64,000 bases of DNA. Origin: Entomoplasma ellychniae. Lineage in GTDB: Bacteria > Bacillota_I > Bacilli_A > Mycoplasmatales > Mycoplasmataceae. The notes below the pieces were generated by a model, which saw only the letters and a program-made list of their open reading frames with translations, was not told the DNA's origin and ran no database searches. Location of the stretch: contig NZ_PHND01000001.1 of NCBI RefSeq assembly GCF_002930155.1, positions 372,001 through 436,000 on the forward strand, given 5' to 3'. The position numbers were made by a program, and so were the translations under genes. Below, in pieces: positions 3,193 through 4,959 of this stretch (positions are counted from its first letter, which is position 1; each line of letters opens with the position of its first letter).

Positions 3193-4512
3193 TTACTTAT
3201 CTTTATATAAATTAAGGTTTAAGGTTTTGTTACAAGTGTTTTCGATAAAAACTTGATCATGACTAACAATGATTATTGTTCCTTCATATTTTTTAATAGC
3301 AGATTCTAACATCATTATAGAATTTAAGTCTAAATAATTGGTTGGTTCATCAAGAAGCAATATGTTTGTTGGTACACTCAAAATTGCGCTTAAATTTAGT
3401 TGAACTTTTTCTCCCTCACTAAGATCTCTAACTTTTTTTAAATACATTAGGTCCGTATATTTAAATTGAGATAAATATCCCCTAATTATTGTTCTTGATT
3501 CATAAGATTTTAAATCGATAAAATCCTTAACCGAAAGATTAAGTAGTTTATCATCCATAACTTGGTGTAAATACCCTATTTTAATTAATGGGTTATTTAA
3601 TTGCGATAGTTGACTATAAATAAAATTCATAAGAGTTGTTTTACCAGATCCGTTTTGCCCAGTTAATGCTATTTTGTCGCGGTTATTTATCATAAAATTG
3701 TATTTATTAAGGTGTAAAATTTCACTTCGTTTTAATCCTTGCTCAAATTCAAAAGATATTTTTTTATTAAGAATATACTTATCATTAACTTCATCTAATT
3801 TGTTTAGTTTAGTTTTAAGCGCACCTAACTTTTTACTCATAGAGCTCTTTCCAGAACCACCTTGCAGTTTCTTTTCAGATGCACTTAATTTTCTAGAACC
3901 GTTTTCTTTTTTATGATTATTTATTCTAGTTGTTGTAATATCTTTTTCTAATTGTTTTTTTTGTCATTTATATTTTTCTATATTGATGTTATGTTGTTTT
4001 GCTTCATTTTCTTTTTCAAAAATATAACTTTTAAAGTTTGTTTTATAATATTTTAATTCATTATCTTCTATCTCTAAAATTTCATTAGCTGTTTTTTGTA
4101 TAAGTTCTCTGTCGTGTGTTATCAATAAAATAACACCTTTGAAACATTTCATTTTTTTTATTAAAAAATTAAAGTTGTTTCTATCTAAATTAACAGTTGG
4201 TTCATCCAAAATTATAAAGTTTCCATCAGCCATAAAAGCTTCAAGAATTTTAGTTTTGCTATATTCTCCACCACTCATATTATTATTGTTTACAAAGTAT
4301 TTTTGCTCTATGTAATTAGTTTTAAATGTGTTTGTTAAAACACCTTCAAATTTGTGTTCAATTTTTGCAACAGCCTTTGCAAAACTTGTTTTACCGACTC
4401 CATTATTACCAATAAGTGCAATAATTTGGTTATTATTATTAATTTGCAATTTTTGTATTTTAAACAAAAATTGTCCATTTTGGGATAGTTTAAAATTATT
4501 TATTTGTATCAT
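3193..4512 (-). CDS. ABC-F family ribosomal protection-type ATPase
   Basis: 439 residues with two ABC domains and no membrane segments, so an ABC-F protein acting on the ribosome. Domain 1 has Walker A GNNGVGKTS, signature MSGGEYSK and Walker B FIILDEPT; domain 2 has GQNGSGKTT, LSEGEKVQ, LLLDEPTNYLD and a switch His (IVSHDQ). A charged linker joins them. It is short for the family and resembles antibiotic-resistance ABC-F proteins (Lsa/Vga/Msr class) more than the housekeeping EttA-like ones. The start at 4512 is fixed by AAGGAG 8 nt upstream. The leader holds a five-codon ORF and a hairpin hiding the ribosome site, the usual set-up for drug-inducible ABC-F genes. The substrate cannot be told. 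Confidence 0.85.
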
Positions 4513-4516
4513 ATCG

Positions 4517-4542
4517 TTATCTCCTTTTTTCAAAAAAGATAA
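4517..4542 (-). promoter_or_regulatory. Hairpin sequestering the ABC-F ribosome binding site
   Basis: On the minus strand TTATCTTTTTT pairs with AAAAAGGAGATAA in an 11-bp stem with two G-U pairs and a 4-nt loop. The right arm holds the GGAG used by the ABC-F start. It is placed between the leader peptide stop and the gene, as expected for translation attenuation. Confidence 0.55.
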
Positions 4543-4564
4543 TGAATTAAATATTTTTTTAAGT

Positions 4565-4582
4565 TTAAACTGTTTTATCCAT
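4565..4582 (-). CDS. Putative leader peptide MDKTV for the ABC-F gene
   Basis: A five-codon ORF (Met-Asp-Lys-Thr-Val, TAA) has a strong ribosome site AAGGTGG 9 nt upstream. The spacer and start context ATAACGAC-ATG-GATA almost repeat that of the main gene (ATAACGAT-ATG-ATA). Short leader ORFs of this kind control resistance genes through antibiotic-stalled ribosomes. Translation is inferred from the ribosome site and position. Confidence 0.5.
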   Translation of the reverse strand: MDKTV

Positions 4583-4605
4583 GTCGTTATTCCACCTTTT
4601 TATAT

Positions 4606-4617
4606 AGTATAATTATA
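4606..4617 (-). promoter_or_regulatory. Promoter -10 region for the ABC-F leader
   Basis: Two overlapping hexamers, TATAAT (4612-4617) and TATACT (4606-4611), lie just upstream of the leader peptide ribosome site. Either would start the transcript at or just before that site. Confidence 0.45.
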
Positions 4618-4700
4618 CATTTTTATTAAAATATTTATCACAAAATTTTTTTTAAATTAATTTGTAATTATAAGGATTAAAAATAAAGGAGAAAAATTAT

Positions 4701-4811
4701 ATGAGTTGTTATTTAGTTTTTCTTATCAATGATTTGGATAATCTTATTAGTTATTACTTTAACAATTATCCAATACAAAATAAAGATTTTGTTTGAGCAA
4801 TATTACTGTAA
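4701..4811 (+). CDS. Possible 36-residue small protein or frameshifted remnant
   Basis: An ATG follows a strong AAAGGAG and opens 36 codons (MSCYLVFLINDLDN...). A +1-shifted frame starting at the ATG within the tenth codon reads as a small membrane peptide (MIWIILLVITLTIIQYKIK). The two could be halves of one frameshifted gene. There is no family match I can name. The rest of 4818-4915 appears empty. Confidence 0.25.
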
Positions 4812-4915
4812 TCAGTATACGATTAGTTAAATTTTATCTTCATACCATGATTTAATTTAATGTTTTTTACTGAAATTATTTTATTAAAAATTTGCATGTT
4901 TGGAAATAAGAAAAT

Positions 4916-4943
4916 AAAAAGTTACACATTTGCGTAACTTTTT
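4916..4943 (-). terminator. Intrinsic terminator after rplS
   Basis: AAAAAGTTAC and GTAACTTTTT form a 10-bp stem with an 8-nt loop. On the minus strand the stem ends in a T tract. It closes the rpsP-rimM-trmD-rplS operon. Confidence 0.85.
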
Positions 4944-4959
4944 AAAAGTTATTGATTTA

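Follow-up and report, generated by a model that had tools for sequence, protein, structure and literature searches.

The cat and erm attenuators are purely translational, the Shine-Dalgarno (SD) sequence of the gene being hidden in the RNA and freed by a ribosome that stalls on the leader. The published upstream ORFs (uORFs) of ARE ABC-F genes are only 3-6 codons long, including those of vmlR (MIN), cplR (MR[I/M]), vmlR2 (MK[L/Q]), lsa(A) (MAGN), and msrD (MYLIFM), and the variants MDN, MDK, and MRK of the vmlR leader also work (PMC9226507, PMC10201436, PMC10314930). Leaders this short suit drugs that halt the ribosome during initiation or immediately afterwards, namely pleuromutilins, lincosamides, and streptogramin A (PMC9226507, PMC10201436). 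A MIN* leader also precedes vga(A) on a staphylococcal plasmid, as read from its sequence in this analysis.

The locus described here lies in a window of 64,000 nucleotides from the mollicute Entomoplasma ellychniae, which has a 900 kb genome and reads TGA as tryptophan. Like B. subtilis vmlR, C. difficile cplR (MRI), vmlR2, lsa(A), and vga(A), it has a very short leader with its own SD and, as in the uORF-controlled ARE ABC-F genes, the SD of the gene lies in a hairpin and the leader itself within the fold (PMC9226507, PMC10201436). It also resembles msrD, where the MsrDL leader (MYLIFM) precedes an ABC-F gene, in that the mollicute leaders have 5-6 codons and three of them likewise start with MY. 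We consider it likely that the locus is a portable cassette comprising its own promoter, a 5-codon leader, an SD-hiding fold, and an ARE-like ABC-F gene, and that it is controlled by ribosome-mediated translation attenuation.

Leader ORF and hidden ribosome site in the window

The ABC-F gene is encoded on the minus strand (3193..4512; translation table 4), as are all features of the cassette given below. It encodes a 439 amino acid protein, kin of the Vga/CplR/Msr ribosome-protection proteins, and its ATG start codon (4512-4510) opens the conserved protein start M-[IL]-Q-I. The original prediction described a five-codon ORF with a strong ribosome site ahead of this gene, followed by an 11-bp hairpin covering its GGAG, and our analysis found both in place. 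The leader ORF ATG GAT AAA ACA GTT TAA (MDKTV; 4582-4565) follows the SD AAAAAGGTGG (4601-4592), which is predicted to be open. The GGAG of the ABC-F ribosome site (4524-4521) sits within the stem of a hairpin at 4542-4517, composed of TTATCTTTTTT (4542-4532), a GAAA loop (4531-4528), and AAAGGAGATAA (4527-4517), with two of the 11 pairs being G-U. The 52-nt spacer between leader and gene (4564-4513) is without a terminator-like U-tract past the hairpin.

A TATAAT -10 box (4617-4612; 10/12 match, with GTGATA at 4641-4636) is located just upstream of the leader. The promoter scan behind this call is itself not above chance; TATAAT or TAAAAT is found at a similar distance upstream of the leader in three other carriers of the gene (G057, G003, and G058). 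Placed from this box, the transcription start is probably some 20 nt upstream of the leader ATG. It should be noted that the interval from rplS to the ABC-F promoter holds a divergent ORF of 36 codons (MSCYLVFLINDLDNLISYYFNNYPIQNKDFVWAILL; 4701-4811, plus strand) preceded by a good SD (AAGGAG), and that a terminator-like hairpin with a T-rich tail past rplS (4915-4944, minus strand) separates rplS from the cassette. An Rfam scan of the window gave zero matches.

The original prediction also regarded the start contexts of leader and gene as duplicated. In the window, ATAACGAC-ATG and ATAACGAT-ATG are exactly as described, and ATAACGAYATG occurs three times genome-wide, twice here and once within an open frame. 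The relatives lack this duplication. It therefore does not speak for the mechanism, and we rejected it as a mechanistic element because it is peculiar to this genome.

The fold upstream of the gene is strong for this genome. The 146-nt region was equalled in folding by 2/200 shuffles, and the fold at -40..-1 before the gene (-9.4 kcal/mol) was matched by 2/1000 dinucleotide shuffles and ranks 9th among the 709 genes of the window genome. The opening cost of the ABC-F ribosome site, 10.9 kcal/mol, is the 8th highest among the 374 window-genome genes with an ATG and a strong SD (median 4.6), and the leader's own ribosome site opens at 2.8 kcal/mol. A loose scan for genes that combine a strong hairpin with a short uORF bearing an SD recovered 7/709 genes, so these single-genome statistics are suggestive only, and the decisive support comes from the presence of the leader in all four other carriers. 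As a separate observation, a 503-aa gene at G000:C1:752381 (plus strand; G000 being the window genome) is likewise preceded by a short ORF with an SD (MNLVSF, 6 codons) and by a hairpin immediately upstream of the gene's SD; its product has a coiled-coil N-terminus and appears RNase Y-like by eye.

The ABC-F protein and the distribution of the cassette

The window protein carries two ABC domains in one chain (Pfam ABC_tran stretches, two NBD motifs) and is without a membrane part. Its nearest NCBIfam model is the ribosomal protection ABC-F model, followed by Vga, Msr, and CplR, with all scores below the cut-offs (NF000355, 291.8 bits against 380; Vga, 276.5 against 725), and the relatives, at 315, are likewise below the curated cut-off. 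The nearest solved structures are 7nhl, a lincosamide-streptogramin A resistance protein, and 7nhn (Lmo0919), and identity to Vga/Msr is about 28-33%. In the tree, three mollicute proteins form their own clade (100/100) with long branches on the Vga/Msr side, where the deep forks are poorly supported (86/84). The alignment shows that the mollicute proteins keep a KPKxLSASE-type interdomain (ARD) loop (RKLSASEKKL in the window protein), which is missing from OptrA, PoxtA, and the separate housekeeping ABC-F encoded in the window genome. The mollicute protein thus resembles Vga/CplR/Msr in its closest curated families, closest structures, and common interdomain loop, and differs from them in scoring below every cut-off, in forming a long-branched clade of its own, and in its smaller size (439 aa). 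Taken together, these comparisons favor a placement of the mollicute ABC-F with the Vga/Msr/CplR side, with a resistance-type interdomain loop.

A protein profile search found the gene in 5/320 genomes of the order, distributed over four genera of one family. The original prediction proposed looking for the leader and the hairpin in related species, and a leader of 5-6 codons is present in 5/5 carriers (MDKTV, MYTSN, MYTSK, MYTAK, and MDTSSN), at -61 to -70 relative to the gene start. The absence of leader conservation, which the original prediction named as grounds for refuting it, is thus not what we observed. The hairpin is kept less evenly, with a hidden SD in G057, G003, and G058 and hardly any fold in the fifth carrier, G011. 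Exact copies of the 16-mer TGATTAAATGTACACA are confined to 3/60 genomes of the family, always at this leader, and the ABC-F proteins of these three genomes are only about 55-65% identical. In two of the five carriers, G011 and G058, the ABC-F gene is broken, being spread over two and three frames, respectively, with stops. The leader ORF remains readable in both of these (L009 of G011 and L010 of G058).

In the window, the cassette lies between rplS and rbgA, a gap of only about 100 nt in G006 and G011, and the cassettes of G058 and G011 are flanked by genes whose orthologues in the window genome are neighbours or nearly so. The neighbours of the cassette differ at every carrier site. Since each carrier has the cassette at a different place, and these places are locally empty in other genomes, leader and gene move together, which is strong evidence from sequence comparison that the leader functions in cis. 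In addition, G003 and G057 share 55% identity in their ABC-F proteins and 36% in their RbgA proteins, which, with RbgA as the one marker, points to horizontal transfer of the ABC-F gene.

Beyond the order, a scan of genome contigs for relatives returned only distant matches in Chryseomicrobium and a Treponemataceae fragment, and a class-wide search added one further relative, G345, whose upstream region contains an MKL leader resembling that of VmlR2 as well as a terminator-like tract. Candidate leaders of these distant ABC-F relatives are MQFLLFY in L011 (Chryseomicrobium) and MKL in L064 (G345).

The scores under the ARE cut-offs and the varying leader peptide would both agree with a leader and hairpin whose role is limited to a constitutive damping or timing of expression, with a uORF that is translated but senses nothing and an ABC-F that serves as a low-dose housekeeping or ribosome-rescue factor; the weak switching predicted for the window copy (see below) would agree as well. 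We consider this unlikely, given that the genome has a separate housekeeping ABC-F, that a patchy occurrence at shifting sites is what one expects of an accessory resistance gene and not of a housekeeping factor, and that the leader and its pairing with the gene are conserved with two-sided changes in the relatives. The design of a tiny leader, kept in relatives at other genome sites, is very probably a real drug-responsive switch, although the fold that would operate it is weak in the window copy.

Pairing between leader and gene start in the relatives

In G057, G003, G058, and partly G011, the fold extends past the SD hairpin, and the leader pairs with the start region of the gene. In these relatives, CUGAUU just upstream of the leader ATG pairs with AAUCAG in codons 4-6 of the gene, and the region of the ABC-F start codon is paired to codons 1-4 of the leader. 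This clamp comprises 16 pairs, of which 96.9% are paired across the four sequences and four have changed on both sides, whereas slid controls were 23-39% paired and had zero two-sided changes except one at +3. For example, a U-A pair has become G-C in G011, where the leader codon changes from Tyr UAC to Asp GAC and the gene codon for Ile from ATA to ATC. The clamp has z-scores of -5.7 to -2.5 in three relatives, and the leader:gene duplex was matched by 0, 3, and 22 of 1000 shuffles in G057, G003, and G058, respectively. As the covariation comes from four sequences, and the gene-side strand is partly conserved as protein too, we regard this evidence for a clamp as good but not overwhelming. 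In G011, where the gene is broken, hardly any fold is left at the leader.

The window genome has lost this pairing on both sides. A candidate clamp in the window copy, in which GGAU...AGUUUAAA pairs with UUUAAACUAUCC, was rejected, as 363/1000 shuffles match it. The decay of the gene in two other carriers and the two-sided loss of the clamp would both fit a regulator that has become a relic in the window genome, with a vestigial leader and a gene that is poorly or constitutively expressed. This seems rather unlikely to us, as the SD, ATG, length, and stop of the leader are all intact, the SD hairpin is strong, and the ABC-F frame is open throughout. A more daring reading would have the leader ORF acting as an antisense lock of the downstream start codon, free of any terminator and travelling with the gene between mollicutes, so that the sensing ribosome would be positioned on one of the two strands of the lock itself; such a lock could be lost, as in the window genome, with leader and SD hairpin staying. 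We rate this more specific proposal as evenly balanced.

Comparison with known attenuators sets this arrangement apart in several respects. Unlike vmlR and cplR, which also rely on an intrinsic terminator and an antiterminator, the cassette has no intrinsic terminator (hairpin and U-tract) between leader and gene in four carriers, and in the relatives the leader pairs directly with the start-codon region of the gene. MsrDL differs in the same way, since it attenuates transcription through a Rho-independent terminator (PMC10314930), and none is found in the mollicute cassette. Transcription attenuation of the vmlR/cplR/msrD type was rejected on the basis of the missing terminator in the four carriers. 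The cassette shares with cat a leader that overlaps the RNA masking the start of the gene, but unlike in cat and erm the masking stem is built from the start of the leader, and not from its end, and surrounds a separate SD hairpin, and the leader has only 5-6 codons. Finally, the mollicute cassette has no counterpart to the 1:2/3:4 to 2:3 swap of ermC (PMC10219788).

Predicted switching and what the cassette would mean for mollicutes

In the mechanism that we propose, ribosomes would traverse the short leader and leave in the absence of drug, and the RNA would then fold and hide the ABC-F ribosome site. A drug at the peptidyl-transferase center or exit tunnel would arrest a ribosome on the leader, and the arrested ribosome would block full folding of the RNA, leaving the ABC-F site accessible for synthesis of a protein that would in turn protect ribosomes. 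In the relatives, the main lock would be the clamp, in which codons 1-4 of the leader and its SD are paired to the start codon and codons 1-7 of the ABC-F gene, with the SD hairpin enclosed between them, and a ribosome on the leader would remove this clamp. In the window genome, with the clamp lost, only the leader and the strong SD hairpin would remain.

We modeled this step by masking a ribosome footprint at each leader codon and recomputing the opening cost of the gene site. In G057, G003, and G058, leader occupancy lowered the cost from 14-16.5 to 8-10.6 kcal/mol, a relief of 4-8.6 kcal/mol that ranks 2, 4, and 14 against the 374 genes, whose median relief under identical masking is 0.2. 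No relief of the gene site was obtained in G011. In the window copy, the cost fell from 10.4 to 9.2 kcal/mol with the footprint at the start codon, or to 7.6 kcal/mol at codon 4, an unremarkable relief (rank 71/374 for the start-codon stall), and a ribosome stalled on the leader leaves about 10 nt free before the hairpin. With the footprint masked at each leader codon of the window copy, we found no alternative fold that frees the GGAG; the SD hairpin persisted throughout, and an ermC-type swap of hairpin arms was consequently rejected for this copy. The stall-and-release step is therefore well supported by the model in the relatives and weakly in the window copy, for which drug-induced opening would follow by analogy with the relatives, where the clamp gives relief. 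The layout of translation attenuation put forward in the original prediction accordingly holds up in part: all carriers have the leader and three have a hidden SD with a strong fold, but in the window copy the predicted relief is only 1.2-2.8 kcal/mol.

Switching of the window copy is probably weaker, or may proceed partly via protection of the mRNA by the stalled ribosome. Induction could even run mainly by this route, the leader-stalled ribosome shielding the 5' end from nucleases and the hairpin setting basal translation. This would suit the window copy, where refolding is not predicted, as well as the closeness of the leader to the putative transcript start (about 20 nt), and erm expression has been reported to follow the stability of the mRNA regardless of whether ribosomes stall (PMC5118997). 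As the main route we find it quite improbable, since it leaves the two-sided changes of the clamp in the relatives unexplained.

In the relatives, the clamp would be opened by any ribosome that stalls on the leader, including one halted by amino-acid shortage or by elongation stalling in general. That the leader senses such conditions and not a drug is highly unlikely in our view, as the leaders are without a single-codon run, the peptide changes between carriers, and the gene appears to belong with the drug-protection ABC-Fs. We infer instead that the leader is translated, that a drug arrests the ribosome on it, and that the ABC-F is induced as a result; the ARE-like cassette would then be both drug-inducible and a source of resistance.

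As short leaders suit drugs that act this early in translation, pleuromutilins, lincosamides, and streptogramin A are the first guess, and they would most likely make up the putative resistance spectrum of the protein. Small penultimate residues are favoured by phenicols and oxazolidinones. Residue 4 of the leader is small across the carriers (Ser, Ser, Ala, Ser, and Thr), so these two classes remain candidates as well.

Mollicutes have small genomes and few known regulators, and our search of the open-access literature retrieved no account of leader-peptide-inducible control of an ARE-type ABC-F in this group. Curated resistance models would miss the cassette, because its protein scores below their cut-offs. 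If the proposed mechanism is true, a ribosome-protection cassette that is induced by drugs and spreads horizontally exists in some wall-less bacteria, and the covarying clamp between leader and start codon would represent a simple, testable design for an attenuator that acts on translation only.
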